From Qipengyuania vesicularis (GTDB taxonomy: Bacteria > Pseudomonadota > Alphaproteobacteria > Sphingomonadales > Sphingomonadaceae), in contig NZ_JAIGNJ010000003.1 in assembly GCF_019711415.1 (NCBI RefSeq), positions 248,001 to 312,000 on the forward strand: 64,000 bases of DNA. Direction: 5' to 3'. Below, piece by piece: positions 2,675 to 47,581 of the stretch (its first letter is position 1; the number at the start of each line of letters is the position of its first letter). The notes under the pieces were generated by a model. It was not told the origin of the DNA and made no database searches. It saw only the letters and a list, made by a program, of their open reading frames with translations. The position numbers and the translations under genes are program-made.

Positions 2675-3553
2675 TTGCTGTCACTACTGGCTGCGAGCGC
2701 AGTTGCTTCCGAACCGATCCAATGGGCCGAACTCGGCCTGAGGCCGTACCTGTTCGAGCTCGGCAGCTTCCAGCTGCGCTACTATTCGCTCGCCTATCTC
2801 TTCGGCATCCTGTTTGCCTATTGGCACCTGTCGAGGATGATCAAGTCGCCCGGCTCGCCGCTGGCGCAGCGCCATGCCGACGACCTGTTCTTCTATTGCA
2901 CGCTCGGCGTTATCCTCGGCGGCAGGCTCGGCTATGCGGCCTTCTACCAGCCCGAGCTGTTCGGCGGGGTCGAATTGTTCCAGCTGTGGAATGGCGGAAT
3001 GAGCTTTCACGGCGGGGTGATCGGCGTGCTGGTCGCGATCAGCTGGGTCGCCTGGCGCGGCTCGCTCAACTGGCTGCGGGTGTGTGACTACATCGCCGTC
3101 AACGTCCCCATCGGCTACATGCTCGGCCGGATCGCGAACTTCATCAATGGCGAGCTTTTTGGCCGGCCCGTCGAAAGCGATGTACTCTGGGCGATGGTCT
3201 TCCCCGGCGGCGGTGATGTCGCGCGCCATCCCAGCCAGCTCTACCAGGCCGGGCTCGAAGGCCTGCTTCTCGGCCTGATCCTCATCGCTCTCTTCTGGAA
3301 AACGCGTGCACGCTACCGCCCGGGCCTGCTCGTCGGCCTGTTCACCGTCGGCATGGGCGTGGGGCGCTTCGTGAACGAGTTCTTCCGCGAACCCGATGCC
3401 CACCTGGCGCATCGCGTGGTCGAAACCGGCCTCAGCCAGGGGCAATGGCTGTCGCTACCGATGATCGGGATAGGGATCGCGGTAATGGTCTATGCGCTCG
3501 TTCGTCCTCCGGTCGGCGGCGCAAAGGCATCGGGCAAGCCGCAGCCCGCATGA
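2675..3553 (+). CDS. lgt: Prolipoprotein diacylglyceryl transferase Lgt
   Basis: Integral inner-membrane enzyme that transfers diacylglycerol from phosphatidylglycerol to the lipobox cysteine of prelipoproteins. At 292 residues it is of normal length, with several hydrophobic segments and the family signature GRIANFINGELFGRP (GR-x-x-NF-x-N-x-E-x-x-GRP), plus the earlier GGRLGYAAFY and the NGGMSFHGG stretch. The start is TTG at 2675 because AAGGGG sits 8 nt upstream and no ATG is available. Its stop overlaps the ATG of the methyltransferase (ATGA), implying translational coupling. Several predicted substrates (lipobox proteins at 7380, 28740, 32096 and 60251) lie in this window. Confidence 0.95.
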   Translation: MLSLLAASAVASEPIQWAELGLRPYLFELGSFQLRYYSLAYLFGILFAYWHLSRMIKSPGSPLAQRHADDLFFYCTLGVILGGRLGYAAFYQPELFGGVELFQLWNGGMSFHGGVIGVLVAISWVAWRGSLNWLRVCDYIAVNVPIGYMLGRIANFINGELFGRPVESDVLWAMVFPGGGDVARHPSQLYQAGLEGLLLGLILIALFWKTRARYRPGLLVGLFTVGMGVGRFVNEFFREPDAHLAHRVVETGLSQGQWLSLPMIGIGIAVMVYALVRPPVGGAKASGKPQPA

Positions 3554-7914: not shown

Positions 7915-9447
7915 TCAATCGAGGATGTTGCGGCGCGGGAAGACAATCCTCACCTCGAGACCGTCTTCGCTGTAGCTACGCTCGAACGAGCCGCCGAGCT
8001 GGCTTTCGATTGCCATTCTCAACAGCCGCGATCCGAAGCCTTCGTTCTCGTCGGGCGGGGTAAATCCGCAGGGGATCGCGACTTCGTCCCAAATGACGCA
8101 AACGGTCTCGTCAGCTTCGCAGCTATCCTCGACCGTGACTACGACCTTCCCTTCGGCGCAGGACAGGGCGCCATATTTTGCGGAGTTGGTGGCAAGTTCG
8201 TGGAAGATCAGCGCGAGCGGCGTGGCGGCGCGCTGCCCGATCTTCACGCCGGGTCCGCTGATGGTAAACCGCTCGCCAGTAGGACTGTCGTACGGGGCGA
8301 GCAGGTCGGCCAGCAGGCCCGAAAGCGTCTCGCCCTGCCGTCCGCCAAGAGGCCGGACATAGTCATGCGCCGTACCCAGCGCCCGCACCGTTTCGGAAAG
8401 GTCGCGGGCGAAGTCCTGGACCTCGTCCTTGCCGCGCGAACGGATGGCAATGAGGCCCGACACCACGGCGAAGATGTTCTTGATCCGGTGCGACAGTTCC
8501 CGCGCCAGAAGATCGCGCGATTCGGAAATGCGATGCGCCTTGTCGACATCGATGACGGTTCCGAACCAGCTCGTGGGCTGGCCTTCGGTGATCACGGGCA
8601 CGGCGCGCGACTGCACCCAGCAGTAGCTGCCGTCGGCGAGTTTCAAGCGCCATTCGTCCTCGAAAAGGCCTTCGGTCTCGACCGCGCTCAGGAATCTCGC
8701 CAGCGTTGCCTCCCAGTCTTCAGGGTGGATCGCGCGCTTCCAGTCTTCGGTGGTGGCCGGCGGCTCGATTCCGGTCAGTTCGCGCCACCGGGCGTTGACA
8801 TAGGTGAAGTTGCCCTGGTCGTCGGCGCGCCAGGCGATGCCCGGAACGCTGTCGATCATCCGGCGCAATTCGCGCTCCTGGTTCTCCAGCGTCTGGTTGA
8901 CATGGCGCCCGAGCCGCCGCTGGCCCAGCCGTCGCATCACCGACTGAGCGAGCACGGCAAGACCTTCGCGCTGGAGGTCCGTCAGGCCTTCACTGCGCGG
9001 CTCGGTATCGATGACGCAAAGGGCCCCGAGCGGTGCACCTTCGGCAGAAATCAGCGGATGACCGGCATAGAAGCGAATGTGGGGCTCACCGGTTACCAGC
9101 GGGTTGTCGGCAAAGAGCGGATCCTCCTGCGCATCACAAATCACCATCGGCTCCGTGCCGAGCATGGCATGGGCGCAGAAGCTGGTGGGGCGCGGTGTCG
9201 TCTCCTCTTCCATACCGAACCTGGCGAGGAAACGCTGGTGCTCCTTCTCGACCAAGGTGACGGTGGCCATCGGCGTATCGCAGAGCTTAGCTGCGAATTG
9301 CGCGATCTGCTGCAGCTCCTCGTCGCCCACGAGATCCTGTCCGCCATAGGTTGCGAGCACGGTCAGCCGCTCGTCCTCGCCGCAATAATGCTGCGAAGGC
9401 GGTTCATTGACCGGCCAGTTCGACCCCTGGGATGTCGGCATATCCAT
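7915..9447 (-). CDS. GAF-PAS sensor histidine kinase of the HWE family (510 aa)
   Basis: Cytoplasmic sensor kinase with no membrane segment. Residues ~35-170 form a GAF domain, ~190-305 a PAS domain (MIDSVPGIAWRADDQGNFTYVNARW) with a PAC tail, and ~310-510 an HWE kinase core. The phospho-acceptor is His320 in ELSHRIKNIFAVV; the family hallmarks are His416 in the N box HELATNSAKYGAL and the WxE motif at W453-E455. In sphingomonads such kinases often feed the PhyR-EcfG general stress response; no response regulator is encoded next to it. The PAS lacks the photoactive LOV cysteine motif, so blue-light sensing is unlikely. Confidence 0.9.
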   Translation of the reverse strand: MDMPTSQGSNWPVNEPPSQHYCGEDERLTVLATYGGQDLVGDEELQQIAQFAAKLCDTPMATVTLVEKEHQRFLARFGMEEETTPRPTSFCAHAMLGTEPMVICDAQEDPLFADNPLVTGEPHIRFYAGHPLISAEGAPLGALCVIDTEPRSEGLTDLQREGLAVLAQSVMRRLGQRRLGRHVNQTLENQERELRRMIDSVPGIAWRADDQGNFTYVNARWRELTGIEPPATTEDWKRAIHPEDWEATLARFLSAVETEGLFEDEWRLKLADGSYCWVQSRAVPVITEGQPTSWFGTVIDVDKAHRISESRDLLARELSHRIKNIFAVVSGLIAIRSRGKDEVQDFARDLSETVRALGTAHDYVRPLGGRQGETLSGLLADLLAPYDSPTGERFTISGPGVKIGQRAATPLALIFHELATNSAKYGALSCAEGKVVVTVEDSCEADETVCVIWDEVAIPCGFTPPDENEGFGSRLLRMAIESQLGGSFERSYSEDGLEVRIVFPRRNILD

Positions 9448-9490
9448 GGCTTCCCGCCAGTCTAGGATATAAACCTCTCTATTTCAAAGG

Positions 9491-9577
9491 CTTTCGCCGA
9501 TAGCGAGGCGCGCGATTCCTCCCCTTGTTTCATAGGTTTGCACCAGCCTTCCGCCTCGGCTATCGCGCGGCGAAGAA
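9491..9577. repeat. Long imperfect inverted repeat in divergent promoter region
   Basis: Between the divergent HWE kinase and ivd genes, CGATAGC-GAGGC (9498-9509) pairs with GCCTC-G-GCTATCG (9553-9565) across a 43-nt loop, with further complementarity (TTCGC with GCGAA) outside. It could be a folded leader, a regulator site or a degenerate mobile palindrome; nothing decides between these. Confidence 0.45.
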
Positions 9578-9617
9578 ATGACAGGGTGCGCCAGTCGCAT
9601 CCGGCTAGGAGAGACAC

Positions 9618-10784
9618 GTGCGCGCCACCCCCGATTTCGATTTCCAGCTCGGCGAAAGCGCCGACATGATCCGCGAAAGCGTCGGCCGTTTTGCCGATGA
9701 ACAGATCCAGCCGCTCGCCGAGAAGGTCGACCGCGAAGACTGGTTCCCCCGCGATCTGTGGCCCGCCATGGGCGAGCTGGGCCTCCACGGCATCACCGTG
9801 GCAGAAGAAGATGGCGGGCTTGGTCTCGGCTATCTCGAACATGTGATCGCGGTCGAGGAAGTCAGCCGGGCGAGCGCTTCGGTGGGCCTTTCCTACGGCG
9901 CGCATTCCAATCTCTGCGTCAACCAGATCGCCCGCTGGGGGAATGACGAACAGAAGGCGAAATACCTGCCCAAGCTTATAAGCGGCGAGCATGTCGGCAG
10001 CCTTGCGATGAGCGAGGCGAGCGCCGGGTCAGACGTCGTCTCGATGCGCACCAAGGCCGAGGCCGTGCAGGGTGGATACCTTCTCAACGGCACCAAGTTC
10101 TGGATCACCAACGCGCCCTATGCCGATACGCTGGTGGTCTATGCCAAGACCTCACCCGAAGCGGCCAGCCGCGGGATCACCACCTTCCTGATCGAGAAGG
10201 ACTTCGAAGGTTTCTCGATCGGCCAGAAGATCGAGAAAGTCGGCATGCGCGGCTCGCCCACGGCAGAGCTGGTGTTCGACGATTGCTTCGTGCCCGAAGA
10301 GAACGTGATGGGCCCCGAAAACGGCGGCGTCGGCGTGCTGATGAGCGGCCTCGACTACGAGCGCGTGGTGCTGGCCGGCCTTCAGCTCGGCGTGATGCAG
10401 GCCTGCCTCGACACGGTCATCCCTTACCTTCGCGAGCGCAAGCAGTTCGGAAAGCCCATCGGCAGCTTCCAGCTGATGCAGGCCAAGGTCGCCGACATGT
10501 ATGTCGCGCTGCAATCGGCCCGCGCCTACACCTATGCCGTGGCCAAGAGCTGTGATGCCAACAAGACCACTCGCTTCGACGCGGCAGGTGCGATCCTGCT
10601 GGCATCGGAAAACGCCTTCCGCGTCGCCGCCGAAAGCGTGCAGGCGCTGGGCGGCGCTGGCTACACGCTCGACTGGCCGGTCGAACGCTACATGCGCGAT
10701 GCGAAGCTGCTCGACATCGGCGCGGGCACGAATGAAATCCGCCGCATGCTGATCGGACGCGAATTGATCGGGGCTGCTGGGTGA
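9618..10784 (+). CDS. ivd: Isovaleryl-CoA dehydrogenase
   Basis: FAD-dependent acyl-CoA dehydrogenase (388 aa) that oxidises isovaleryl-CoA to 3-methylcrotonyl-CoA in leucine catabolism. The catalytic glutamate is Glu248 in GLDYERVVLAG, at the position used by isovaleryl-CoA dehydrogenases (helix G) and not the C-terminal position of most paralogs. Other family blocks: SLAMSEASAGSDV, KFWITNAPYAD, and the C-terminal QALGGAGYTLDWPVERYMRD with GAGTNEIRR. Start GTG at 9618 has AGGAGAG about 6 nt upstream. The stop overlaps the next gene (TGATG), and the carboxylase subunit for the next pathway step follows. Confidence 0.95.
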   Translation: MRATPDFDFQLGESADMIRESVGRFADEQIQPLAEKVDREDWFPRDLWPAMGELGLHGITVAEEDGGLGLGYLEHVIAVEEVSRASASVGLSYGAHSNLCVNQIARWGNDEQKAKYLPKLISGEHVGSLAMSEASAGSDVVSMRTKAEAVQGGYLLNGTKFWITNAPYADTLVVYAKTSPEAASRGITTFLIEKDFEGFSIGQKIEKVGMRGSPTAELVFDDCFVPEENVMGPENGGVGVLMSGLDYERVVLAGLQLGVMQACLDTVIPYLRERKQFGKPIGSFQLMQAKVADMYVALQSARAYTYAVAKSCDANKTTRFDAAGAILLASENAFRVAAESVQALGGAGYTLDWPVERYMRDAKLLDIGAGTNEIRRMLIGRELIGAAG

Positions 10785-11092
10785 TGCCGGTCTACATGAT
10801 CTCCCGCATGACGATCCACGATCGCGCCGAGTATGACAAATACGAAGAACGGTTCATGGAAATCTTCGACAAGTTCGATGGCACGCTGCTCAGCGTCGAC
10901 GAGGAACCTCAGGTCGTGGCTGGCGAATGGAAAGCCACGCGCTCGGTCCTCATGGAATTCCCGACCAAACCGCAGCTCTTCGCCTGGCTCACCTCGCCCG
11001 AGTACCTGGAAATCGGCAAGTTCCGCGATGCCGGGAGCACAGCCGAAGCCATAATCGTAAATGGCCTAGAGCCGGGAGACATGCCCTCGTGA
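10784..11092 (+). CDS. DUF1330 family small protein in the leucine catabolic operon
   Basis: About 102 residues with the ferredoxin-like DUF1330 layout: [21 protein letters not shown] at the N-terminus, then a repeat of beta strands ([16 protein letters not shown]) and [24 protein letters not shown]1330 proteins are small and of unknown function, related in fold to dimeric alpha-beta barrels. ATG at 10784 shares a base with the ivd stop; a GTG one codon earlier is equally possible. The stop overlaps the GTG of mccB. The tight sandwich between two leucine-degradation enzymes suggests a role in that pathway, but this is inference. Confidence 0.85.
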
Positions 11093-12696
11093 CCGCACCC
11101 GTTCTCACATCCACGCTCGATCGCGAGGCGCCCGACGCGAAGGCGCGCTTCGAGCATAACAAATCGCTCGCAGCAGACCTGCGCTCAACTGTCGCCGCCG
11201 CCGCTCTGGGCGGCTCCGAAGGCAGCCGCGAGCGGCATGTCGGGCGCGGCAAGCTCTTGCCGCGCGAGCGGGTGGAGCGCCTGCTCGATCCGGGCAGTCC
11301 GTTTCTCGAGATCGGCCAGCTTGCTGCCAATGGCATGTACAAGGATACGATCAACGGCGCGGGGATGATTGCCGGGATCGGGCGCGTGTCGGGGCGGCAG
11401 GTGATGATCGTGTGCAACGATGCCACCGTGAAGGGCGGCACCTACTATCCGATGACGGTCAAGAAGCACTTGCGCGCGCAGGAAATCGCACAGGAGAACC
11501 GGCTCCCGTGCATCTATCTCGTCGACAGCGGCGGGGCGAACTTGCCGCACCAGGCCGAGGTCTTCCCCGACCGCGACCATTTCGGGCGCATCTTCTTCAA
11601 CCAGGCGAACATGAGCGCGCTGGGCATCCCGCAGATTGCATGCGTCATGGGCAGCTGCACTGCAGGCGGCGCCTATGTGCCGGCCATGTCCGACGAGACG
11701 GTCATCGTGCGCAATCAGGGCACGATCTTCCTTGCCGGACCGCCGCTGGTGAAGGCCGCGACGGGCGAGGAAATCAGCGCCGAGGATCTTGGCGGCGGCG
11801 ACCTCCACGCCAAGAAATCGGGCGTGGCCGACCACCTCGCCGAGAATGACGAGCACGCGCTCACCATCGTGCGCGATATCGTCAGCCACCTTGGCGACAA
11901 TTACGCCGAGGCGAGGAACATCGACCTCAAGGAACCCCGCGCGCCCAAGTTCGATGCGGACGATCTCTATGCCCTCGTGCCCGATGATGTCCGAGCGCCC
12001 TATGACGTGAAGGAAGTCATCGCGCGCCTCGTCGACGGCAGCGAGTTCCACGAGTTCAAGGCGCAATACGGCAGCACGCTGGTCTGCGGCTTTGCCCATA
12101 TCTGGGGCATGCCGGTGGCGATCCTCGCCAATAATGGCGTGCTCTTTTCCGAAAGCGCGCAAAAGGGCGCGCATTTCATCGAACTCGCCTGCCAGCGCCG
12201 GATTCCGTTGCTGTTCCTCCAAAACATCTCCGGCTTCATGGTCGGCGGGAAATACGAAGCGGAAGGCATTGCCAAGCATGGCGCGAAGCTCGTGACAGCC
12301 GTTGCCACTGCCACCGTTCCGAAAGTCACCGTGGTCATCGGCGGCAGCTTCGGCGCGGGCAATTACGGTATGTGCGGCCGCGCCTATTCCCCGCGTTTCC
12401 TCTTCACCTGGCCCAACGCCCGCATCTCCGTGATGGGCGGCGAGCAGGCCGCATCGGTCCTCGCCACTGTCCACCGCGACGCGGACAGCTGGACCGAGGA
12501 ACAGGCCGAGGAATTCAAGGCCCCGATCCGCCAGAAATACGAAGACGAAGGCAACCCCTATTACGCCACCGCGCGCCTGTGGGACGACGGCGTGATCGAT
12601 CCGGTCCAGACGCGCGATGTCCTCGGCCTCGCCTTCGCCGCAACGCTCGAAGCGCCAATTCCCGAGAAACCGCAGTTCGGCGTGTTCAGGATGTAA
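11089..12696 (+). CDS. mccB: Methylcrotonyl-CoA carboxylase, carboxyltransferase (beta) subunit
   Basis: 535 residues, normal for the beta subunit, which transfers CO2 from biotin to 3-methylcrotonyl-CoA. The carboxyltransferase N and C lobes are both present, with [24 protein letters not shown] at the start, [17 protein letters not shown], and the C-lobe [25 protein letters not shown] stretch that distinguishes MCC from propionyl-CoA carboxylase in my reading. GTG at 11089 overlaps the DUF1330 stop. The biotin-carrying alpha subunit, the hydratase and HMG-CoA lyase are not in this window, so the pathway operon is split in this genome. Confidence 0.93.
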
Positions 12697-37901: not shown

Positions 37902-39344
37902 CTAGGACTGACGCTCTTCTCGGAGCTTTGCAAATTCCTTCAGGCCAGGATGGACCTTCAACCGACTAGCGCCGTTGTCCCAGCCCGCCTGTGGATCCGT
38001 ATACTGAAAGACCCAGCCGCTACCACCCTTACCAATGCCTCGACGATAACCGATCACGGAAAAACGATACAAGATTTCCAACGCTTCTTCGCCGTCGTAG
38101 TCATTTTTCTTTGACCGCCGTTGCTCGTAAGCTTCCAAGAAATCGTTCTTCGGGAAGGTGATTGTCACCAATTCAGAGAACACTCTGATTGCATCCGTCC
38201 ACTTTTCCCAGTGGGGCCCGAGCTCATCGTCGAGCTCCTGCTTCAAATAACGGGAATATGGCTCTCGGGCCAATTGGATGTCGTCATTGTCGAACGTGTC
38301 AGCCTCGGCCTCTCGATCAAGGCTTATTGCCAAGGCACAGTTGAGAAACTGGATTACATCTCGCGGTCGCAAGAAAGTTCGAGCGATGATGTGATTCCAT
38401 TTGGGTTGCGAGCCCCTCATCACATCGCCATTATCCAGATCTTTCCAACTAAATTTTGCACCCAGCTTCGCCTTGATGCGCTCGTTGACGAGGGCCAGCA
38501 GGGAGTCACTGTCCCATTCGAGATCCACGGCGGCAGTTTGAGAGATTTTATTTTTATCTGAGAAGCGAAATTCATCCCAGATATCCGTTCTAAGGTAGGC
38601 GACTGGAATTATTTTCGTCTCGAAACCAGCCATTCGTCTTATAGAACGACAGGCAAGCACCAAACCGATTATCATTCGTTCGTGTGTTTCGTTTATTTCG
38701 GAGAGGCCTTGATCCAGCTCATCAAAGTGGATCAAAATCTTGGAGTGCCCGATTTGGCTGCCTATCGTGAATGCTGCATCCAGCAAGATATCGGTCAGGG
38801 CATCTACCTCATGTGCAAGATCTCCCTTCTCCGTCTCTAATTCCACACCACCAAGGGCATTACCCATTATGCTTGGCTGAAATGAAGCTTTTGAAAGCTT
38901 TAATCGTGGCGGACGAAGGATGTTGGGCAGAGTGGGTCTCGTGCCGCCGTAATTGTCTTGAAGAAAAGTATTAGCAGCCCGCTGGCTGTCCGTAATAATG
39001 CGCTTTGACGCCTCTAGGAGCATCGATAGAGCTTTGACCGCTATTAGATAGCGCCACGACGAAACATACGATTCAATCTCAGAAGCACCAGAATTTCGAC
39101 GCCGCTCATGCAGCGCCCACGGATAATCGCGCAGGCTCAGCGATGCCGAAAGATAATCACCCTTCGGTTCTTCAAAATACTTAGCGATCGCCGTTTTGCC
39201 AGATCCTTTCCGGCCCAGTACGATCAAGGCATCGCCCGCCTCTACACGGCCCACCGCTTCGGTTTTTAAGAAGTAGCTTAGGACTGCATCGTCATCCTCG
39301 GCTGCTACATCACCGAATGTCCCTATCTCGGCGTGAAGTCCCAT
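37902..39344 (-). CDS. P-loop ATPase resembling the Sll1717 family, coupled to nrdB (480 aa)
   Basis: Starts MGLHAEIGTFGDVAAEDDDAVLSYFL, then Walker A GRKGSGKT at residues 44-51 and Walker B ILIHFDELD at ~203-211, followed by MIIGLVLACRSIRRM and IIPVAYLRTDIWDEF, the ASCE/KAP-like plan of Sll1717-type ATPases. The C-terminus (EALEILYRFSVIGYRRG, SGWVFQYTDP, KVHPGLKEFAKLRE) looks like a winged helix. Base composition is visibly AT-richer than the neighbours, a sign of transfer. Its ATG overlaps the last base of the nrdB TAA (TAATG), so it is translated with nrdB. Relatives are often found in defence contexts, but no partner gene is present. Confidence 0.8.
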   Translation of the reverse strand: MGLHAEIGTFGDVAAEDDDAVLSYFLKTEAVGRVEAGDALIVLGRKGSGKTAIAKYFEEPKGDYLSASLSLRDYPWALHERRRNSGASEIESYVSSWRYLIAVKALSMLLEASKRIITDSQRAANTFLQDNYGGTRPTLPNILRPPRLKLSKASFQPSIMGNALGGVELETEKGDLAHEVDALTDILLDAAFTIGSQIGHSKILIHFDELDQGLSEINETHERMIIGLVLACRSIRRMAGFETKIIPVAYLRTDIWDEFRFSDKNKISQTAAVDLEWDSDSLLALVNERIKAKLGAKFSWKDLDNGDVMRGSQPKWNHIIARTFLRPRDVIQFLNCALAISLDREAEADTFDNDDIQLAREPYSRYLKQELDDELGPHWEKWTDAIRVFSELVTITFPKNDFLEAYEQRRSKKNDYDGEEALEILYRFSVIGYRRGIGKGGSGWVFQYTDPQAGWDNGASRLKVHPGLKEFAKLREERQS

Positions 39345-40402
39345 TACTCCGCCGCCACAGCCCCTTCGCCCTCGCCGAACAGGCCCGGGCCGTCGGTCTC
39401 GGCCTCTTCCTCGTTCGCGGCCTTGGCTTTCTGGCGCTTGTCGAAGCTCGACCACACGTCGTTCCAATTGCCCTTGGTCGCGCCCTTGGAATATTCGGTC
39501 GCGCGGGTTTCGAAGAAGTTGGCGTGCTCCACACCGTTGAGCAGCGGGGCGAGCCAGGGGAGCGGGTGGTCGTCGACCATGTAGATCGGGTCGAGATTCA
39601 GCTGACCCAGGCGCCAGTCAGCGATGTAGCGGATGTACTTCTTGATATCCTTCGCCGTCATGCCGGACACGGGGCCCATTTCGAAGGCGAGGTCGATGAA
39701 GTTGTCTTCCAGACGCACCGTCTTCTGGCAGATGTCGATGATGTCTTCCTTGACCGCCTTGGTCAGGCAGTCGCGCTCGCGCACGAACTCGTGGAACATG
39801 CGGATGATGCCTTCGCAGTGCAGGCTTTCGTCGCGCACCGACCAGCTGACGATTTGCCCCATGCCCTTCATCTTGTTGAAGCGCGGGAAGTTCATCAGCA
39901 TGGCGAAACTGGCGAAGAGCTGCATGCCTTCGGTGAAGGCGCCGAACATGGCGAGCGTCCGGGCAATGTCTTCATCGTTGTCGACGCCGAACTGCTGCAT
40001 GTAATTGTGCTTGTCGGCCATCTCCTCGTAATCGAGGAAGGCGCTGTACTCGCTTTCGGGCATGCCGATGGTGTCGAGCAGGTGCGAGTACGCCGCGATG
40101 TGCACCGTCTCCATGTTGGAGAAGGCGGTGAGCATCATCTTGACCTCGGTCGGCTTGAACACGCGGCCGTATTTGTCGTGGTAGCAATCCTGCACCTCGA
40201 CATCGGCCTGGGTGAAGAAACGGAAGATCTGCGTGAGCAGGTTGCGCTCGTGCTCGGTCAGCTTCTGCGCCCAGTCGCGGCAGTCTTCGCCCAGCGGAAC
40301 TTCTTCCGGCATCCAGTGGATCTGCTGCTGACGCTTCCAGAATTCATAGGCCCAGGGGTATTCGAAGGGCTTGTAGGTCTTGCGGGCTTCGAGCAACGAC
40401 AT
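39344..40402 (-). CDS. nrdB: Ribonucleotide reductase class Ia beta subunit NrdB
   Basis: Holds the di-iron/tyrosyl radical cofactor that activates NrdA. In 352 residues the metal ligands are visible: Asp67 (TQADVEV), Glu98 and His101 (METVH), Glu158 (FTEGM), Glu192 and His195 (RDESLH). The radical tyrosine is Tyr105 (HIAAY), four residues after His101 as in E. coli. The tail after ~335 is acidic and glycine-rich (ETDGPGLFGEGEGAVAAE), the part that docks on NrdA. nrdA is about 7 kb away on the same strand, so they are not in one operon. The stop overlaps the ATPase start. Upstream the minus strand has a TATATA -10-like element near 40435. Confidence 0.96.
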   Translation of the reverse strand: MSLLEARKTYKPFEYPWAYEFWKRQQQIHWMPEEVPLGEDCRDWAQKLTEHERNLLTQIFRFFTQADVEVQDCYHDKYGRVFKPTEVKMMLTAFSNMETVHIAAYSHLLDTIGMPESEYSAFLDYEEMADKHNYMQQFGVDNDEDIARTLAMFGAFTEGMQLFASFAMLMNFPRFNKMKGMGQIVSWSVRDESLHCEGIIRMFHEFVRERDCLTKAVKEDIIDICQKTVRLEDNFIDLAFEMGPVSGMTAKDIKKYIRYIADWRLGQLNLDPIYMVDDHPLPWLAPLLNGVEHANFFETRATEYSKGATKGNWNDVWSSFDKRQKAKAANEEEAETDGPGLFGEGEGAVAAE

Positions 40403-40646
40403 CTTGTGTTCTCCGGCGAGTCAGCGTGAGCAGACTATATAGGGAATCACAGCGGCGATTCGAAGGCAAGGGGGAATGATTCGGCGGGGATAAGCTGCGG
40501 GTAAGTCGGGATTGCCGTGGCTCGCCGGCATCAGTTTGGGACAGATTGCGCAAGGCGATTGGTCAAGCCCATGCCAAACGTCTAGGAAATCGGTCCGTGG
40601 CCCTTGCTGGCCGCAGTGTGCATGCACGGATAGGACGACGCTGACC
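40403..40646. other. Divergent intergenic region between nrdB and the adenylation fusion gene
   Basis: These 244 bases must carry both promoters. A palindrome CTATATAG lies at about 40433-40440, too short for the NrdR consensus but usable as a -10 element for nrdB. An AGGA at 40632-40635 serves the downstream gene. Plus-strand reading through this region is open but looks non-coding. Confidence 0.45.
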
Positions 40647-43244
40647 TTGCCTGATCGTATCGTATCGAGCGCTGCCGGTGGAAGCCTCGCGCTCCGCGAC
40701 AACACTTGGATCGGTGCCGACAAGGTGAGCGGGCTGGAATTCCTCCGGCTGGCACAGCTAGCGTGGGACGAACGCGCGGTGCTGATGATCGGCAAGGCAC
40801 CCTCTGCCGGGATCGAGCCCGAGGAATGGCACACGCCCGCGCCCGGTGGCGGCTGGTGGGATGCCGGCTTCACCCCGGACGATGCAGAGGCGCTGGCGCA
40901 GGTCTCTACCACATCGGGCACGACCGGAGAGCCAAAGGCGATCGCTATTTCCCGCCGCGCGGTGAGCGACACGGTCGCCCGGCTGGTCGAGCATATGGAG
41001 CTCGACAGTTCCCTGCGCGAATATGTCGGCGTGCCGGTGACCTTCAGTTTCGGCCTTGCGCGCACCCGCGCAGCAGGCGCCGTGGGCGGCTCTGTCTATC
41101 TCCCTGAAAACGGGTTCCGTCCGGACGAGATCGCGCGGATGCTGGCAGCGGGCGAGATCAATGCGCTGAGCGCGGTGCCGACCATGCTGCGCACGCTGAT
41201 CGCCAATCCCGAACTGGTAGCGAGCGCGGGCGACAAGCTGCGCTGGCTCGAGATCGGCAGCCAGTACATGTCTGGCGAGGAGAAGCGGGCCATCCGCGAT
41301 CTCTTCCCCAATGCGGTGATCCTCCAGCACTATGGCCTCACCGAAGCCTCGCGTTCCACATTCCTGCGTATCGACAAGGTGAGCGATGCCGAGCTCGAGA
41401 GCGTCGGCAGAGCGGTGGGCGATGGCGAGGTACGGATCGACGGCGAAGGGCACATCGCCGTGCGCGGGTCACACCTCGCCAGCGGCATCCTCCGCGACGG
41501 CGCGCTGCAGCCGCTTGTCGGAGAAGATGGCTGGCTGACCACTTCCGACCTCGGCGAAATCCGCGATGGTGCGGTCTTCTATTCGGGCCGCAGCGACGAT
41601 GTCGCCAATATCGGCGGTATCAAGGTTTCTGCCGAACATTTCGAACGCGGCGTGGCGCGACGGCTCGGTACACCACTCTTCGGCGCGGCCTGCGTGATGG
41701 AGGACAGCCAGCGCGGTCAGAAGCTGGGCGTTGCCATCCTGCCCGCGGCGCCCGAGATCTGGCGCGAGGCGCTGGCGGCAGAGGCGGCGGAAGCGGGCCT
41801 CGCGATGGCGGACCTCGCCGCAGTCGAATTGGATGAACTACCCCGCACAGGCACAGGCAAGGTCCAGCGCAATGTGCTCGCAGAGATCATCGCCGAGCAG
41901 GCCACTGCCCGACGCGAGATCCGCGCGGATGGCCCCGAAGAAGAACTGAGCGAGGAAGAAGAGCGCATCGCGGCCATCTGGCGCGATGTCCTCAACGTCC
42001 CCTCCGTCCGGCGGCACGATACCTTCTTCGACCTCGGCGGGGATTCGCTCTCGGCCATCTCGGTGATGCTACGGATGGAACAGGCGGGGATTCCCGAGGG
42101 CCTGAGCCAGCAGATTTTCGAGGGCCGCAGCATTGCAGAGATCGCCGCCGGCACGGGCGAACCCGGCGCAGTGCGTCCGCCGTCGCTCCAGTCGATCTCG
42201 GCCAATGCGATCAACTTTACCCGCGGCATCCTCGTCCTGATCGTGATCGGGGCGCACTGGGGCCCGTTTCTCTGGACCAAGGCTGGCCGGGCAGGCGAGA
42301 TTTTCGCCGAATGGAGCTGGCCGCTCTTCCGCTTCGGCACCCCGGGTTTTGCGATGGTCTTTGGCCTCGGTCTCGGCTTCTTCTGGTCCCAGACCGCGCG
42401 CGACGATCCGGCGCGGCTGAAGCAGCGGATCCGGATCAGCCTTCTGGTCGTGGGATTGGGTTTCGCGCTGATCGCCTCGATCAAGGCCTTGCAGGTGACG
42501 CTCGCGGGCGAGGCGCTCGGCCCGGACTGGCCCGACAGGTTCTTTTACGACGTTCTGCTATTCTACGTCCTTGCGGTGGCGTCGCTCTATCCCCTGTTGC
42601 GCCTGGTCGTGAAATCCCGCCAGCCGGTGGTTGCTGCGCTGGTCGGAATGGCGCTGGCGTTCCTCGCGTTCGAACTGCTCAACCCGCTCGCCGACATCGA
42701 TGTGCACGGCTTTGCCAAGCTTGCCATCACCATGCTCACCGCCGGATATGGCTATCCGCGCATGATGGGTTTCGTGCTCGCCGGCCTTGCTGCCGGGCTC
42801 TGGATCAAGGCGCATAGCGACGATCCGCGTTTGGGCGTGACGACGGCTCTTGCAGGTCTCGCCCTTGTCCTTGGCGGAATTGTCCTTTCCTTCCTGCTCG
42901 GCATCGAGGAACGCTGGTTCATCGGACCGCCGAGCGGTGCCGCGATCGTCTCTTACGTCGGAGCGATGCTGTTGCTGTTCGCTGCTGCCCATGGCTGGCA
43001 GCGGCGACTGGGCGGCCACCTCAACCTTGCATTTCGGGTAACTGTGCTGCTGGGCATGCTCTCGCTCCCGGCATACGTCCTCCATGGTGCCGCCTTCCCC
43101 ATGCGCGAACTCCTTGGGAATGCGGGCCTGCCGACTGCCCTGGGGGTTGGAATCCCGGTATTCCTCGTCATGGGACTGCTCGCGATTGCGCTGCGCAAGG
43201 CCTATCTCACCTACTACGGGACGCGAGCTGCGCGGTCTGCCTAG
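40647..43244 (+). CDS. Adenylation domain - carrier domain - membrane acyltransferase fusion (865 aa)
   Basis: Three modules in one chain. Residues ~1-440: adenylation domain with TSGTTGEPKAIA at ~89-100, HYGLTEASR, a GRSDDVANIGGIKVSAE hinge and LPRTGTGKVQRN; its N-terminal lobe is about 70 residues shorter than usual. Residues ~445-520: carrier with attachment Ser467 in FFDLGGDSLS. Residues ~525-865: about ten membrane helices beginning FTRGILVLIVIGAHWGPF, the Arg/His opening of acyltransferase-3 (OafA-type) proteins. Predicted to activate an acid, hold it as a thioester, and pass it to an acceptor at the inner membrane, comparable in logic to DltA-DltC-DltB. Start TTG 40647 (MPDRIVSS) is tentative; no ATG is suitable. 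Confidence 0.85.
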   Translation: MPDRIVSSAAGGSLALRDNTWIGADKVSGLEFLRLAQLAWDERAVLMIGKAPSAGIEPEEWHTPAPGGGWWDAGFTPDDAEALAQVSTTSGTTGEPKAIAISRRAVSDTVARLVEHMELDSSLREYVGVPVTFSFGLARTRAAGAVGGSVYLPENGFRPDEIARMLAAGEINALSAVPTMLRTLIANPELVASAGDKLRWLEIGSQYMSGEEKRAIRDLFPNAVILQHYGLTEASRSTFLRIDKVSDAELESVGRAVGDGEVRIDGEGHIAVRGSHLASGILRDGALQPLVGEDGWLTTSDLGEIRDGAVFYSGRSDDVANIGGIKVSAEHFERGVARRLGTPLFGAACVMEDSQRGQKLGVAILPAAPEIWREALAAEAAEAGLAMADLAAVELDELPRTGTGKVQRNVLAEIIAEQATARREIRADGPEEELSEEEERIAAIWRDVLNVPSVRRHDTFFDLGGDSLSAISVMLRMEQAGIPEGLSQQIFEGRSIAEIAAGTGEPGAVRPPSLQSISANAINFTRGILVLIVIGAHWGPFLWTKAGRAGEIFAEWSWPLFRFGTPGFAMVFGLGLGFFWSQTARDDPARLKQRIRISLLVVGLGFALIASIKALQVTLAGEALGPDWPDRFFYDVLLFYVLAVASLYPLLRLVVKSRQPVVAALVGMALAFLAFELLNPLADIDVHGFAKLAITMLTAGYGYPRMMGFVLAGLAAGLWIKAHSDDPRLGVTTALAGLALVLGGIVLSFLLGIEERWFIGPPSGAAIVSYVGAMLLLFAAAHGWQRRLGGHLNLAFRVTVLLGMLSLPAYVLHGAAFPMRELLGNAGLPTALGVGIPVFLVMGLLAIALRKAYLTYYGTRAARSA

Positions 43245-43312
43245 GCGGGCAGTTGCGAAACCCAGTGAGCGCCCAGGCTGAGGGCAGTGCCCTCTTGCAT
43301 GCGACGAGCCGC

Positions 43313-43338
43313 GGAACATGCGTGCGGTCTGATCCGTT
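43313..43338 (+). promoter_or_regulatory. EcfG-type general stress response promoter
   Basis: GGAAC (43313-43317), a 17-nt spacer, then CGTT (43335-43338), an exact match to the alphaproteobacterial EcfG consensus GGAAC-N16/17-CGTT. It lies 24 nt upstream of the ATG of the small acidic protein at 43362. Confidence 0.75.
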
Positions 43339-43361
43339 GATTGTGTAAAGGAGATTTTCAC

Positions 43362-43652
43362 ATGGGTGACTACGCACCGGAAGACCAACGCGCCGTCCAC
43401 AATGACAATGATGCCACCTGGCGCGAGCAGGAAGAGGGCGCTCAGGACGACAGCGCGAGAGCGCAGCCCGGCTATGGCAACGCACGAAACGCCGAAGGCC
43501 AGATGGACCAGGATGTCGCCACCAGCTCGCTGGGCGACCGACCTCTCGCACAGGGCAGCAAGGCTTCCGCCATTGCGCAGCCCGGCGAGATTTCCAGCCG
43601 CCCCGACGAGCGCGCTGCCGCCGATGCCGACCGGCCTCTGGGCGAAAGCTAA
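43362..43652 (+). CDS. Small acidic, disordered stress-type protein (96 aa)
   Basis: Highly hydrophilic with no hydrophobic core: DYAPEDQRAVHNDNDATWRE, then EEGAQDDSARAQPGYGNARN, DQDVATSSLGDRPLAQ and a closing RPDERAAADADRPLGES. Composition (D, E, A, Q, N, G, R) and length resemble intrinsically disordered stress protectants. AAGGAG lies ~8 nt before the ATG, and a consensus EcfG promoter is upstream, so it is likely induced by the general stress response. No family name recognised. Confidence 0.8.
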   Translation: MGDYAPEDQRAVHNDNDATWREQEEGAQDDSARAQPGYGNARNAEGQMDQDVATSSLGDRPLAQGSKASAIAQPGEISSRPDERAAADADRPLGES

Positions 43653-43726
43653 GACCAGTTTCACAGTACGGGGCTAAGCGGATTTGTCCGGTTTTCCCCT
43701 TTTGCGGGCAAGTCTCGCAACCCCGG

Positions 43727-43752
43727 CGCCCCGCCCCTCAAAAGGCGGGGCG
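43727..43752. terminator. Strong hairpin between convergent genes
   Basis: CGCCCCGCC-CCTCAAAA-GGCGGGGCG: a perfect 9-bp stem located between the convergent ends of the acidic stress protein gene (43652) and the membrane protein gene (43796). No clear T tract on either side; probably a shared terminator or 3' end structure. Confidence 0.6.
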
Positions 43753-43795
43753 TCATACGTCTGGCGTCCTGCATTCGGGCGTTCCGCAGGAGTCT

Positions 43796-44299
43796 CTAAG
43801 GCTGCATTACCTGCGTGATGTAAAATATGAGCCCGATCGAAACCACGAGGGCAAATGCGAGCCCGATCTTCGCTTCGCGCGGATAGACAGTCGGCCCGGG
43901 AGCTTCACCCTCCTGTTCTTCCTCCCCGATGCGCCCCCTGTTCTGGGCAAAGAGGACCGCCGCAGCGACTGCCGCAGGGGCCAGTGCGAGATCTTCGGCG
44001 CTCACGACATCGACCAGCACCACGGGCAGCGCGAGCTGGAGCGTCATCTGTAAGGATACGGACAGAACCCGCAGGATATCGAAGCGGTCCGGCTCTTCGT
44101 TCTGGTGCCATTGCAGGTCGCGAAGTTCCTCCGGATGGGCACCTCCTTCGCAGCGAAGCAACCGATCGATGCGCCACTGCCAATAGGAATACCGGATGTG
44201 CGGCCAGCTCTCGAGGGTCAGCGCGAAGATGAACGCCGCGAGCAGCCAGCCCCAGCTCCAGCCGCTGATCCCGTCGAAAAGTGTGAGAAATTCCCCCAT
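43796..44299 (-). CDS. Membrane protein of unknown function (167 aa)
   Basis: One N-terminal helix (WGWLLAAFIFALTL), a cytoplasmic stretch of ~55 residues (RYSYWQWRIDRLLRCEGGAHPEELRDLQWHQNEEPDRFDILRV), then helices LQMTLQLALPVVLVDVV, LALAPAAVAAAVLF and IGLAFALVVSIGLIFYITQ. No known motif. It is divergent from the DUF2171 gene. Confidence 0.72.
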   Translation of the reverse strand: MGEFLTLFDGISGWSWGWLLAAFIFALTLESWPHIRYSYWQWRIDRLLRCEGGAHPEELRDLQWHQNEEPDRFDILRVLSVSLQMTLQLALPVVLVDVVSAEDLALAPAAVAAAVLFAQNRGRIGEEEQEGEAPGPTVYPREAKIGLAFALVVSIGLIFYITQVMQP

Positions 44300-44380
44300 G
44301 GCAATTCGTCTATCCGGCCCATTTCATTCTGGCCATTCCTCACTGAATCCCCAACCCGTGCACCAGCCTCGACGAAGCGT

Positions 44381-44405
44381 GGACCGATAACCGATGCCGC
44401 CCGTT
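44381..44405 (+). promoter_or_regulatory. Near-consensus EcfG promoter
   Basis: GGACC (44381-44385), 16-nt spacer, CGTT (44402-44405), one mismatch to GGAAC-N16/17-CGTT, 38 nt before the DUF2171 ATG. Weaker than the site at 43313. Confidence 0.4.
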
Positions 44406-44442
44406 GGTAAGGTATAAGCAACGCAAAACAAAAGGGTTTTAC

Positions 44443-44688
44443 ATGTTTGAGAAGCTACGCATCAAGGAACACATGGAAGTCACCAATTGTAACGGAGAAC
44501 ATGTCGGCACGGTCGACGCCGTACAGGATGACGCCATCAAGCTGACCAAGTCGGACAGCGCAGACGACATGCACCATTTCCTCTCGCTCGACGATGTCGA
44601 GAAGATCGATGACAATCGTGTCTATCTGAAGGAAGGCGCACGCATCCCCGAAGGCCTCGGCAACAAGGCCGTCATGGAAGACGCCTAA
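44443..44688 (+). CDS. DUF2171 family protein (81 aa)
   Basis: Small PRC-barrel-like protein: IKEHMEVTNCNGEHVGTVDAVQDDAIKLTKSD, HHFLSLDDVEKIDDNRVYL. The h-x-G-x-x-V-G-x-V-D pattern and length define DUF2171, commonly stress-induced in sphingomonads. The ATG follows AAAGGG. A near-match EcfG promoter and a strong terminator frame it as a single-gene transcript. Confidence 0.88.
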   Translation: MFEKLRIKEHMEVTNCNGEHVGTVDAVQDDAIKLTKSDSADDMHHFLSLDDVEKIDDNRVYLKEGARIPEGLGNKAVMEDA

Positions 44689-44720
44689 GATTTCCGACCG
44701 GATTTGATCCGGTATCGAAC

Positions 44721-44755
44721 AGCCCCGCTGCCCCATCTCGGGCGGCGGGGCTTTT
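44721..44755 (+). terminator. Intrinsic terminator after DUF2171 gene
   Basis: AGCCCCGC-T-GCCC stem pairing with GGGC-G-GCGGGGCT, loop near 44734-44739, followed by TTTTCTTG. A second hairpin ACCGGAT-TTG-ATCCGGT (about 44697-44713) precedes it. Confidence 0.85.
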
Positions 44756-44824
44756 CTTGTGTGCCCTGCACCGCGGAAAAGCGAGATTGATAAACCCTCG
44801 CATTGTCATAAAGTGGTCGCGATA

Positions 44825-46021
44825 ATGGAGCGGGCGCGAAACAGGACCGTTCCCGGTCATGCCGGGATCATGGACTGGTGGCGGTGGAAACCGACCCCCT
44901 GCCCTGTGCACCTGCGCGACAAGCTGAAAGCTGTCATCGAGGATCGCCAGTATCGCGAGGCGCGGTTCCTTACCCGGCTTGGAATGGCGGCCGCGGTCCT
45001 CTCACTGATGGTCGATGTCATCACTATGCCGGACCTTGTCGGCCAGATCGCACTGGTTCGGCTGGGGAGCGTCATCCCGGTGCAGATTGCCGCGCTTGCA
45101 ATGCCGCGGAGCCAGCTGGGCTGGCAGAAATTCCTCATGGGCCTTTCGCTCAGCCTGTTCTGCCTCAGCCTCGTCTACGCGAGTTCGCTGGCCCCTGCTC
45201 CTGCAGACGCGTTCCTCGCCATGGGTCTTGTCATGATGCTCGGCATTGCGGTTCCGCTCCTGCCCCTGAAGGCATGGGAGCTTGCGCTGTTCGTGATCGG
45301 GACGCTGCTGATGGCCGGCCTGCTGATGCTGTTACTGAATGCGCAACCCGCTTTCCTGCAGATCTACTTCGTCATCCTTTGCCTTTCTTCCGGCGGAGCG
45401 ATGGTGCTCGCCCGGCGAGTCCGATGGCTCGACCGGAACACGGCTCTCATGGCGATCCAGGCCCAGGAGCACGCGGCCGATCTCGAAAGCAGCAATGCAC
45501 GGCTGACCCAATTGTCGATGCAGGATCCGCTTACCAATCTGGCCAACCGTCGTTGGGCCGAAGTCGCCTTTGCCAGCAACTATGCGGTCACGCCGGAGGA
45601 GGCGCCCGGCTACACTGCATTGCTGCTCCTCGATCTCGACCATTTCAAGGCGTTCAATGACAGCTGGGGCCATGACATCGGCGATCGCTGCCTCGTCGCC
45701 GTCGCCGAAGTCATGCGCCATACGACTAGCACCCATGGAGGCCTGGCCGCCCGGTTCGGCGGCGAGGAGTTCGTTGTCCTCATGCGGGTCGGATCGATCT
45801 CGGATGCCCTGCGCATCGCCGAGGACCTGCGCGTAGGGGTGGAACGGATCGAGATTGAAAGCGAAGCGATGGGCCGGACGGTCAGCTGCACGACCAGCAT
45901 CGGCGTAGCCGTCCACGAGGCTGCCAGCCCGCCGTCGCTATCTGACATGCTCAAGCGAGCGGACGCGGCGCTCTACGAAGCCAAGGATGCGGGACGTAAT
46001 CGTTTCAAGCTGGCTGCCTGA
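44825..46021 (+). CDS. Membrane-anchored diguanylate cyclase (GGDEF) (398 aa)
   Basis: Six or so N-terminal membrane helices (residues ~45-215) and a C-terminal GGDEF domain with DPLTNLANRRW, LLLLDLDHFKAFNDSWGHDIGDRCL and active-site RFGGEEFVVLM. It should make c-di-GMP from two GTP. The RxxD inhibitory site five residues before GGEEF is absent (HGGLAARF), so product feedback may be missing. Start: ATG 44825 or ATG 44870 (MDWWRW); ribosome sites are weak for both. Two PilZ proteins that might read c-di-GMP are encoded at 51.7-52.6 kb. Confidence 0.9.
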   Translation: MERARNRTVPGHAGIMDWWRWKPTPCPVHLRDKLKAVIEDRQYREARFLTRLGMAAAVLSLMVDVITMPDLVGQIALVRLGSVIPVQIAALAMPRSQLGWQKFLMGLSLSLFCLSLVYASSLAPAPADAFLAMGLVMMLGIAVPLLPLKAWELALFVIGTLLMAGLLMLLLNAQPAFLQIYFVILCLSSGGAMVLARRVRWLDRNTALMAIQAQEHAADLESSNARLTQLSMQDPLTNLANRRWAEVAFASNYAVTPEEAPGYTALLLLDLDHFKAFNDSWGHDIGDRCLVAVAEVMRHTTSTHGGLAARFGGEEFVVLMRVGSISDALRIAEDLRVGVERIEIESEAMGRTVSCTTSIGVAVHEAASPPSLSDMLKRADAALYEAKDAGRNRFKLAA

Positions 46022-46039
46022 CTCGCAATGTAGTGACAG

Positions 46040-47062
46040 TTACCAGTAGGTGCTGGCAGATCGGCTTCGGATGACCTGGTTTGCCCGCAAGACCGAGGGC
46101 AGGGATGCGGCAAATGCCAGCACGCGGATCGGGAGGGTCGTTGCCCACGTCCAGCGCGACTGGTTCCTCCTGCGCACAAGGCGCGAGAACACGAGTTCAT
46201 TCGGCACGACCCAGCCCTTGTCGCCGACGCGGCTGGTAACGACATCGTCGACCCATTGGGGATCGGTCTCGTTCTTTTGGCGAATCCACTCGCCGGCATG
46301 CGTTCCCAATCCGAGCGCCTGGAAGTGCTCGATAAGCCAGCGGTTGATGAGGGTACCAACCATCATGCGTTGTTCGTGATGGAAGAAGCCCCGGATCGAT
46401 TCCGCGGCATAGAAATGGGTCGGTATCTCGGGCTGCCGGACGTTCTCGATCGGACCGGGCAGCGTGAATCCCTCGGTGGTTACAATGGCGTTGAGGAAAC
46501 CGTCCTCCCCGGGAAGGTCGTTCGGCAACCATATCTCCCGCAGCACCTCCGCCCGCGCGACGTAGCATGAGCCGTTGATGACATTGGTATAGCCCGTCTG
46601 CTGCGATGCTGCGAGCGACAGCCGTTCGACGACGTTCTGCTGCTTTTTGCGCACGGTGTCCTTGATGGGCTTTCCGCTGACGACCGAGACGTCGGGGTCG
46701 GCAAGAAGGATGGCCAACAGGTCTTCGAGGACATGGTCGTGCGCCAGTTCGATATCGCCATCGAGGAATACGAGGAGTTCGTTGGACGGATCGCTGAGCT
46801 CGTGCACCGCCGTATTCCAGCTCCGGCTCTTGCCGCCTTGCTTCAGCTCCTCGACCCGGAATGTAATGCCGTCCATGGCCCTGAAGATCGGGCGCGATTG
46901 CTGGGCGACCTCTGCGGTGTTGTCGGTGCAGCCGTTCGGGACGACGAGGATCTCTATCGCATGGTCGCGGCCAAGGAGGCTTTGGCGCGAGAGCGAGGTA
47001 AGGCACTGCGTGATCCGCGCTGCCTCATCCTTGCACAGGATTATTACCCCTATTCGCGACAC
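46040..47062 (-). CDS. GT2 family glycosyltransferase (340 aa)
   Basis: GT-A glycosyltransferase: IGVIILCKDEAARITQCLTSLSRQS, IEILVVPNGCTDNTAEVA, LLVFLDGDIELAHDHVLEDL (metal-binding DGD) and LPNDLPGEDGFLNAIVTTEGF (ED/E acid block). No transmembrane helices, except weak hydrophobicity at ~305-320, so it probably uses a soluble or lipid-linked acceptor. GTG at 47062 is the start. It is convergent with the diguanylate cyclase gene, 18 nt apart; a functional link to c-di-GMP is conceivable but unproven. Confidence 0.85.
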   Translation of the reverse strand: MSRIGVIILCKDEAARITQCLTSLSRQSLLGRDHAIEILVVPNGCTDNTAEVAQQSRPIFRAMDGITFRVEELKQGGKSRSWNTAVHELSDPSNELLVFLDGDIELAHDHVLEDLLAILLADPDVSVVSGKPIKDTVRKKQQNVVERLSLAASQQTGYTNVINGSCYVARAEVLREIWLPNDLPGEDGFLNAIVTTEGFTLPGPIENVRQPEIPTHFYAAESIRGFFHHEQRMMVGTLINRWLIEHFQALGLGTHAGEWIRQKNETDPQWVDDVVTSRVGDKGWVVPNELVFSRLVRRRNQSRWTWATTLPIRVLAFAASLPSVLRANQVIRSRSASTYW

Positions 47063-47171
47063 TGATTCGAAGACCCCTGCCCTGTTTGGTCAACGGCTAT
47101 CCTATCCATGAATGCCTAATGCTTTACAACCACGAAGCAAATTCGGGCGCGTCGCCTCGCTCGATTTGTTG

Positions 47172-47210
47172 GGAAATAGAAAAGCCGGCCGCCTAACATA
47201 TTCGGTCGGC
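47172..47210 (-). terminator. Intrinsic terminator of the nrdA transcript
   Basis: On the minus strand an 8-bp stem (47203-47210 with 47184-47191, one wobble pair) is followed by TTTTCTATTT. It lies just past the small membrane protein gene that overlaps nrdA. Confidence 0.75.
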
Positions 47211-47224
47211 ATCGAATTTCGGGC

Positions 47225-47581
47225 TTATTGACCATCGCTGTTTCGGGCACTCCGGCCCCGGACCAGCACCGCCTTCCGCAAAGCCCGCTCCAGCCAGATT
47301 GCAGTGAACAGGGGAAGATATGCCATCCAGCCTAGAAGGAGCCAGCCGCGCGGACCTTCTGCAAGCGAACAGCTGACCATCTCGGCAAAGCGCGCACGGC
47401 GACCGATGCTTGGCTCTGCATGGCACGTGACATCGACCGCCAGCCATTGCTGGAGCTGGCCAATTCCGAAGTACCAGACCAGCGCTAACCCCGCGAAAAC
47501 AGCCAACGCCGCCCAGCTGACCCTCAGGGTGAGCGGAGCGGCGCCGGAAGCTTTGTCAGGATTTACTGGCAGGCGAGGCAT
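47225..47581 (-). CDS. Small two-helix membrane protein overlapping nrdA (118 aa)
   Basis: Two hydrophobic segments (WAALAVFAGLALVWYFG and GWLLLGWMAYLPLFTAIWL) around a loop with two cysteines (TCHAEPSIGRRARFAEMVSCSLAEG), probably periplasmic and possibly disulfide-linked. ATG at 47581 lies inside nrdA, 19 nt before the end of the nrdA stop codon, so translation is coupled. It is followed by an intrinsic terminator. No family recognised; the association with nrdA is notable. Confidence 0.72.
   Translation of the reverse strand: MPRLPVNPDKASGAAPLTLRVSWAALAVFAGLALVWYFGIGQLQQWLAVDVTCHAEPSIGRRARFAEMVSCSLAEGPRGWLLLGWMAYLPLFTAIWLERALRKAVLVRGRSARNSDGQ

Follow-up and report, generated by a model that had tools for sequence, protein, structure and literature searches.

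How does a membrane acyltransferase obtain its acyl group when the domains that would activate and carry that group precede it in the same chain? The question is raised by a gene in a 64,000-nucleotide stretch of Qipengyuania vesicularis DNA (contig NZ_JAIGNJ010000003.1, positions 248,001 to 312,000; hereafter the window), which joins an adenylation (A) domain, a carrier domain and a membrane domain of the TmAT fold in a single polypeptide. It is almost certain that both the fusion and the fold are genuine. On balance, the protein is probably a three-domain enzyme acylating an extracytoplasmic acceptor by a Dlt-like logic of activation, loading and transfer with a TmAT partner, an activity that we infer from features computed directly: the domains, predicted fold and motifs, the conserved fusion, the depletion of a donor motif and the polysaccharide-type context of several relatives.

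The A domain would activate, at the expense of ATP, a carboxylic acid that lacks a canonical alpha-amino group and, to judge from the domains present, the acid would then be loaded onto the phosphopantetheine arm at Ser467 of the fused carrier. By analogy with the AT3 mechanism, the arm of the holo-carrier would reach from the cytoplasm into the pore of the TmAT domain, which forms the C-terminal part of the chain with its ten helices, and there His537 would assist in passing the acyl group on to an acceptor across the membrane. The donor would be the carrier in cis and not free acyl-coenzyme A (acyl-CoA). As acceptor, a surface polysaccharide or the lipid-linked precursor of one is the most likely.

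A single chain of three domains

The frame from 40647 to 43244 is uninterrupted, and upstream it extends to a TTG at 40512 for a total open stretch of 910 codons. The start region shows no ATG, and the structure model leaves residues 1-12 disordered. No sigma-70-like promoter was found, the promoter and terminator scan gave no informative signal and the ribosome-site pattern was not above chance. A sequence-only reading of the window had listed the adenylation motifs TSGTTGEPK, GLTEAS and TGTGKVQRN and a carrier serine in LGGDSLS, all of which are present (Table 1). It had also proposed that activation, loading and transfer are combined in one chain, as in the Dlt system and with a partner other than DltB, and this is supported by domains, predicted fold and relatives.

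The A domain is a member of the ANL/AMP-binding family (PF00501; 89 bits against a Pfam cut-off of 29.9) with its core motifs in place, and Arg236 is kept in 25/25 A-domain rows of the alignment. Membership of the carrier family (PF00550) is equally clear from a PP-binding score of 40.9 bits against a cut-off of 20.8. Condensation, thioesterase and reductase domains were not found in the chain by Pfam. The adenylation N-lobe, which the same reading had called unusually short, is about 73 residues shorter before the P-loop than that of MatB (window residue 76 aligns with MatB 149). Since this shortness is common to the whole clade of relatives, it is not a local truncation.

Recurrence of the fusion

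Genome searches at family and order level recovered the same three-domain order in relatives. With only the best two to four candidates of each genome scored, and with the query's own genome included in each count, matches were obtained in 10/199 genomes of the family (E<=1e-40) and, at E<=1e-60, in 8/396 of the order, 1/385 of the class (the window's own) and 10/295 of the family of a Lutimaribacter genome (G880). A scan of genome contigs yielded four loci out of 16 pattern stretches. The fusion gene is rare and patchily distributed.

The chains compared come from 28 open frames, one of them the window's. Among the 26 relatives with an A domain, one (L037) stops at a contig edge and the remaining 25 all continue in frame into a membrane domain. 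This rules out a sequencing error or split genes, and the single-chain fusion first read from one sequence is genuine. Two of the three plasmid relatives are likewise fused. On a Neorhizobium galegae plasmid, the A domain of a relative described in pieces only (L105, 8857-11076) contains an in-frame interruption, and the relative is annotated as two proteins. The annotation of one relative in the records is only 'AMP-binding protein'.

Alignment and reading divide the membrane halves of the relatives into at least three types. Type I is the kind present in the window, type II is near classic AT3 (105, 102 and 75 bits on PF01757 for L032, L033 and L069, the three scanned) and type III is weak on PF01757 (22-28 bits, cut-off 31, four scanned). 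The R-X10-H motif is complete in 25 of the 27 chains that reach it, the exceptions being K for R in L036 and R for H in the A-bearing copy of L038. The latter locus holds a tandem, in which the full chain (8451-11060), with Arg replacing the motif His, is followed by a carrier-membrane protein (11015-12379) that has both residues intact and no A domain, and is 33% identical to window residues 430-858. The pair looks as though the two proteins shared the work.

A second A-carrier-AT3 gene in L033, named P0002, has a full N-lobe (AMP-binding 132.5 bits and PF01757 107 bits by Pfam; carrier motif seen by eye). Its matches at E<=1e-60 cover 16/396 genomes of the order, including one (G417) that belongs to the same genus as the window. 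Of 17 places listed, eight lie in frames of more than 800 residues and nine in frames of 463-562 residues, with room for an A domain only; each of seven fetched P0002-type loci contains one long chain of this kind. The A-domain tree omitted L037 and the carrier-membrane protein of L038, and took five of the eight full-N-lobe chains as outgroup. It separates 26 short-N-lobe rows from these five with 100/100 support, so the short N-lobe is a clade trait and the architecture a recurrent one. Membrane type requires five changes on this tree, where the minimum is two; as the starred branches force only one change per group, an exchange of membrane halves among fusions is suggested by the sequences and no more.

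A divergent TmAT-fold membrane domain

The model of the membrane domain has the conserved core fold of the TmAT superfamily and matches TmAT structures, which rules out a chance motif match as the source of the AT3 reading. Like AT3 proteins, the fusion carries R-X10-H in transmembrane helix (TMH) 1. An MBOAT partner is not supported, given this fold and a probability of 0.15% between the membrane profile and an MBOAT-like neighbour (assigned by eye) in hhalign; this neighbour was one of three other membrane proteins compared, which gave 0.07-0.4%, these being single sequences and hence weaker tests than profiles. PF01757 is matched at E<=0.1 by 5/14 type I membrane domains (best 4.3e-10), and the L038 carrier-membrane protein, which is also of type I, scores 38.4 bits against a cut-off of 31, with a match that spans positions 3-324 of 326.

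The AT3-like nature of the domain rests on predicted fold, R-X10-H and homologues together. The AT3-type assignment of the sequence-only reading survives on these three counts and fails at the Pfam gathering score for PF01757. On the strength of the model, we therefore class the membrane part with the TmAT-fold domains, as a divergent one that in the window itself escapes detection by Pfam AT3, and do not count it among the members of that Pfam family.

Depletion of the donor motif

In OafB, the CoA 3'-phosphate is assigned to Arg14 of R-X10-H and to residues including Arg74 of the RXXR motif of TMH3, whose Arg71 and Arg74 follow Arg14 by 57 and 60 residues (PMC9833829). We counted a strict R..R wherever it fell 45-92 residues downstream of the arginine in R-X10-H, a place set by offset. 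Carrier-fused AT3s have it in 3/35 cases: 3/15 in type I (3.2 expected by shuffling), 0/5 in type II, 0/7 in type III and 0/8 in the full-N clade. At this offset the window has neither a strict nor a relaxed RXXR, unlike a canonical CoA-using AT3. Unfused AT3s, comprising 30 returned loci (L042 among them) and L043-L045, with proteins of AT3-SGNH length included, show it in 23/33 cases against 5.9 expected by shuffling, in a sample that is largely the best-scoring match per genome and may favour canonical motifs. When K is allowed, the counts become 12/35 fused versus 31/33 unfused. The fetched loci supplied nine unfused AT3s, four of them scanned with Pfam and five recognised by eye, and eight of the nine have the strict form.

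RXXR is also absent from type II and P0002, which are good PF01757 matches (75-107 bits, four scanned), and this comparison of sequences suggests that its loss follows fusion rather than general divergence. The depletion looks like a change of donor from CoA to the fused carrier and is consistent with a carrier acting in cis. A carrier-fed donor is, in our view, quite likely.

The acceptor and the neighbourhoods of relatives

Neighbours picked by eye from gene lists were scanned in eight loci (L038, L030, L009, L029, L041, L033, L032 and L010). Beyond these and four loci with a single scanned neighbour (below), loci were read by eye only, and the gene caller, a simple script, may have missed genes. 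Polysaccharide-type or AT3 genes lie near the fusion in all eight. In L038 these are dTDP-rhamnose genes, a WecG-type transferase and the exosortase XrtD, all over their cut-offs; a PEP-CTERM-type ATPase and TPR proteins in the same locus stay under theirs. The fusion is accompanied in L029 and L030 by an AT3 and a sugar-phosphate transferase (with Wzy_C in L029), in L032 and L033 by an AT3 (with a GT2 glycosyltransferase in L033), in L009 by GT1, GT2 and sulfotransferases, in L041 by a Wzx-type protein, glycosyltransferases and GH16, and in L010 by GT2 and GT25.

Such neighbours favour a surface glycan over a lipid. Of the lipid or cell-wall sugar first proposed as acceptor, the sugar side is thus strengthened and the lipid less favoured, and the accompanying remark that no biosynthetic cluster surrounds the gene holds for the lone insert of the window and not for the eight scanned relatives. 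We lean slightly towards a surface-glycan acceptor, though not in every relative. A lipid, a peptide or a small secreted metabolite as acceptor is unlikely, with some weight nonetheless: no glycan cluster was seen by eye in the window or in relatives such as L068, L069 and the plasmid locus L104, and the fold matches include GWT1 (8xij), a TmAT-fold acyltransferase that acts on a lipid-linked precursor. The neighbours of the eight scanned loci speak against it. Scans of one neighbour each in four more loci (TauD in L062, L064 and L036, an AAA ATPase in L061) decide nothing.

Tandem carriers stand between the A and membrane domains in some relatives, two in L036, three in L064 and four in L062. 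A TauD/TfdA dioxygenase lies directly upstream on the same strand in each of the three and was confined to them among 29 loci searched, the window and three plasmid loci included. In other pathways, TauD-type oxygenases such as SyrP can work on substrates that are bound to a carrier. These features would fit a broader proposal, for and against which the chances seem evenly balanced, of a so far unrecognised class of membrane assembly lines for surface-glycan decoration. Acids would be activated, tailored on the carrier (in some members by TauD hydroxylation, with two to four carriers in tandem) and passed directly from there through the TmAT pore; A domains of at least two clades and TmAT domains of three types would have come together repeatedly, with convergent loss of the CoA-phosphate motif. 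Near the fusion gene of L061 are also an MBOAT-like gene (10814-12259) and an AT3-SGNH-like gene (2579-4468), both recognised by eye, so that this cluster may hold three kinds of membrane acyltransferase.

Carrier or coenzyme A

Several observations weigh against a carrier-fed TmAT enzyme acting on surface glycans. For the membrane domain, PF01757 was not matched by the whole chain at E<=0.01 nor by the membrane segment alone at E<=10, and 9/14 type I membrane domains, the window's included, have no match at E<=0.1. The Foldseek match to HGSNAT has an E-value of 0.056-0.32. The profile comparison with five type II and four unfused AT3s yields a probability of 33% (E 4e-4), covering the first helices with R-X10-H in register, and that of type I with type III 1.1%. 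For the carriers of several type II and III relatives, those of L033, L034, L040 and L041 fall under the Pfam cut-off and those of L067, L069 and P0002 were unreported at E<=0.01, the attachment serine being present in all seven. A single ACPS-family phosphopantetheinyl transferase was found in the host genome, AcpS-like by its reading and its neighbours, and a putative modification of the fusion carrier may depend on it. The RXXR place was fixed by offset and not by structural alignment; Fisher's p of 2e-7, alike for the strict and K-allowed contrasts, ignores relatedness; and in type I the strict count is about that expected by shuffling, with the relaxed form in 8/15. A basic cluster, RLKQRIR, persists in the window near the expected place, and Arg526 is kept, though a carrier donor has no CoA 3'-phosphate. 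Finally, the gene is alone in the window, so that its acceptor is deduced from relatives.

Some of these points favour an ordinary CoA-using AT3, in which an acyl group made or stored by the A-carrier half goes to CoA or serves another enzyme and the fusion only co-localises the two halves. The donors named in the parts of the AT3 literature consulted are acetyl-CoA or acyl-CoA (PMC9558356, PMC9833829), with acyl-CoA favoured over acyl carrier protein (PMC9558356), and the retained Arg526 corresponds to the arginine assigned to the CoA phosphate (PMC9833829). To the extent covered by these sources, the relatives described are CoA-fed and the fusion seemingly carrier-fed. A CoA-using enzyme is nevertheless distinctly unlikely: RXXR is depleted across fused types I, II and III and the full-N clade, tandem carriers sit directly before the membrane domain, and the L038 carrier-membrane protein keeps its carrier with the membrane part despite having no A domain.

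The substrate

Taken alone, the A domain has its best sequence matches in the salicylate ligase CahJ, MatB and dihydroxybenzoate ligases. Nonribosomal peptide synthetase (NRPS) domains for amino acids have Asp235 in the substrate pocket; the fusion has Ser134 there, and serine occupies the position in 25/25 A-domain rows of a hand alignment that uses GrsA numbering, which we presume to place Asp235. An alpha-amino acid is thereby disfavoured, and of the common acid or amino acid originally suggested, a non-amino-acid substrate is likely. Loading of an amino acid as by DltA or Pls/PosA, with aminoacylation of a surface polymer, is improbable on both the serine and the best matches.

Genomic setting

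The fusion gene forms a lone insert of 2.8 kb. Homology to same-genus genomes spans nrdB and its upstream region to about 40506 and resumes at 43289, and in one genome (L082) the flank points are only 19 bases apart. No terminal repeats of a mobile element were recognised at the insert ends, and the G+C content (0.654 for the insert, 0.627 for the window) is not telling. It is highly improbable that the copy in the window is an orphan, acquired and at present functionless: the lone insert, the failure to find the gene in 14 same-genus nrdA-nrdB regions fetched or at E<=1e-60 in 20 listed same-genus genomes, and the missing promoter would suit it, and against it the frame is open over 910 codons with the named catalytic motifs and Ser467 intact.

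Among the fetched regions, the two nrd genes are arranged differently in L094, and L088 has a 25% match to another frame beyond nrdA. The glycosyltransferase of the window weakly resembles the GT2 genes that neighbour the fusion in Lutimaribacter (E 4e-10 and 2e-7) and is a possible partner of the fusion. Elsewhere the host genome (2.71 Mb) has four PF01757 matches and one Bac_transf.

Table 1. Positions of the fusion gene, its domains and motifs, and associated features in the window
Feature	Position	Strand	Residues	Remarks
A-carrier-TmAT fusion open frame	40512..43244	+	865	counted from candidate start TTG 40647
Adenylation domain	40695..41906	+	17-420	Pfam, structure model, comparison with known enzymes
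P-loop motif TSGTTGEPK	40911..40937	+	89-97	
A5 motif GLTEAS (230-235), then Arg236, Ser237	41334..41357	+	230-237	
A10 motif TGTGKVQRN	41847..41873	+	401-409	catalytic-lysine position is Lys405
Carrier domain	41952..42155	+	436-503	Pfam, structure model
Phosphopantetheine attachment position in LGGDSLS	42045..42047	+	Ser467	Ser in 26/26 rows of alignment A1
Membrane domain, TmAT-superfamily fold	42186..43238	+	514-864	structure model, fold comparison
R-X10-H motif, RGILVLIVIGAH, TMH1	42222..42257	+	526-537	Arg526 and His537; sequence, alignment
Conserved His, C-terminal part of membrane domain	43083..43085	+	His813	13/14 letters in alignment A1
Single-gene insert between nrdB and small divergent gene	40507..43288	+		flanks match empty same-genus sites
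GT2 glycosyltransferase	46040..47062	-		Pfam; not found in 14 same-genus nrdA-nrdB regions

The nrdA-nrdB interval (40403-47562 in the window; L082-L095 in other genomes) is variable. DUF2171 is present in 13/14 fetched regions, while the presence of GGDEF, of a 167-residue protein and of other genes differs from region to region. In another genus (L028), a fusion relative lies in the same interval on the opposite side of DUF2171. The small gene (43362-43652, +), divergent from nrdB, encodes an acidic protein (MGDYAPEDQ...), and similar small genes were seen by eye at the same place in several same-genus genomes. Beside nrdB, a P-loop ATPase of the Sll1717 family (37902-39467, -; NCBIfam 314 bits, cut-off 75) lies in a stretch with G+C down to 0.49, lower than its surroundings; its match to an anti-phage family model is weak (40 bits, cut-off 370).

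Comparison with known systems

In the literature titles and abstract starts searched, no A-carrier-AT3 protein was found as a subject, and one may still exist in print. AT3 fusions named in the parts of the sources consulted are with SGNH, alanine or serine racemase and NRF, beside unnamed others in Eukarya (PMC9558356, PMC12423673, PMC9833829). With the AT3/TmAT superfamily (OafB, HGSNAT, GWT1) the fusion shares the TmAT fold and R-X10-H; it adds cytoplasmic A and carrier domains in front, and RXXR is usually missing in the fused members. Enzymes of this superfamily modify surface sugars widely. A natural A-carrier-TmAT fusion offers a direct handle on whether the TmAT pore can accept an acyl group from a carrier protein, and lets one ask which residues determine the choice of donor and whether surface glycans can receive acids other than acetyl in this way.

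The A and carrier arrangement is that of NRPS-like A-PCP (peptidyl carrier protein) proteins such as McyG A-PCP, PA1221 and the EntE-EntB fusion, from which the present chain differs by continuing into a membrane acyltransferase. MatB malonyl-CoA synthetase and the aryl-acid ligases are, unlike the fusion, stand-alone enzymes with a full N-lobe and with CoA or aryl-carrier products. The Pls/PosA polyamino-acid synthetases also place membrane helices after the A and carrier domains; their substrates are lysine or ornithine and their final domains are condensation-like, a description that sets them apart.

The closest parallel in logic is the Dlt system, where activation, loading and transfer are divided among the separate proteins DltA, DltC and DltB and are here similarly arranged in one chain. 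The Asp235 equivalent of the Dlt system is absent from the fusion, and the membrane partner DltB is an MBOAT protein, structurally distinct from TmAT according to PMC12423673, whereas that of the fusion has the TmAT fold. If the proposed activity is true, the fusion would be a convergent counterpart of the Dlt pathway in Gram-negative bacteria.
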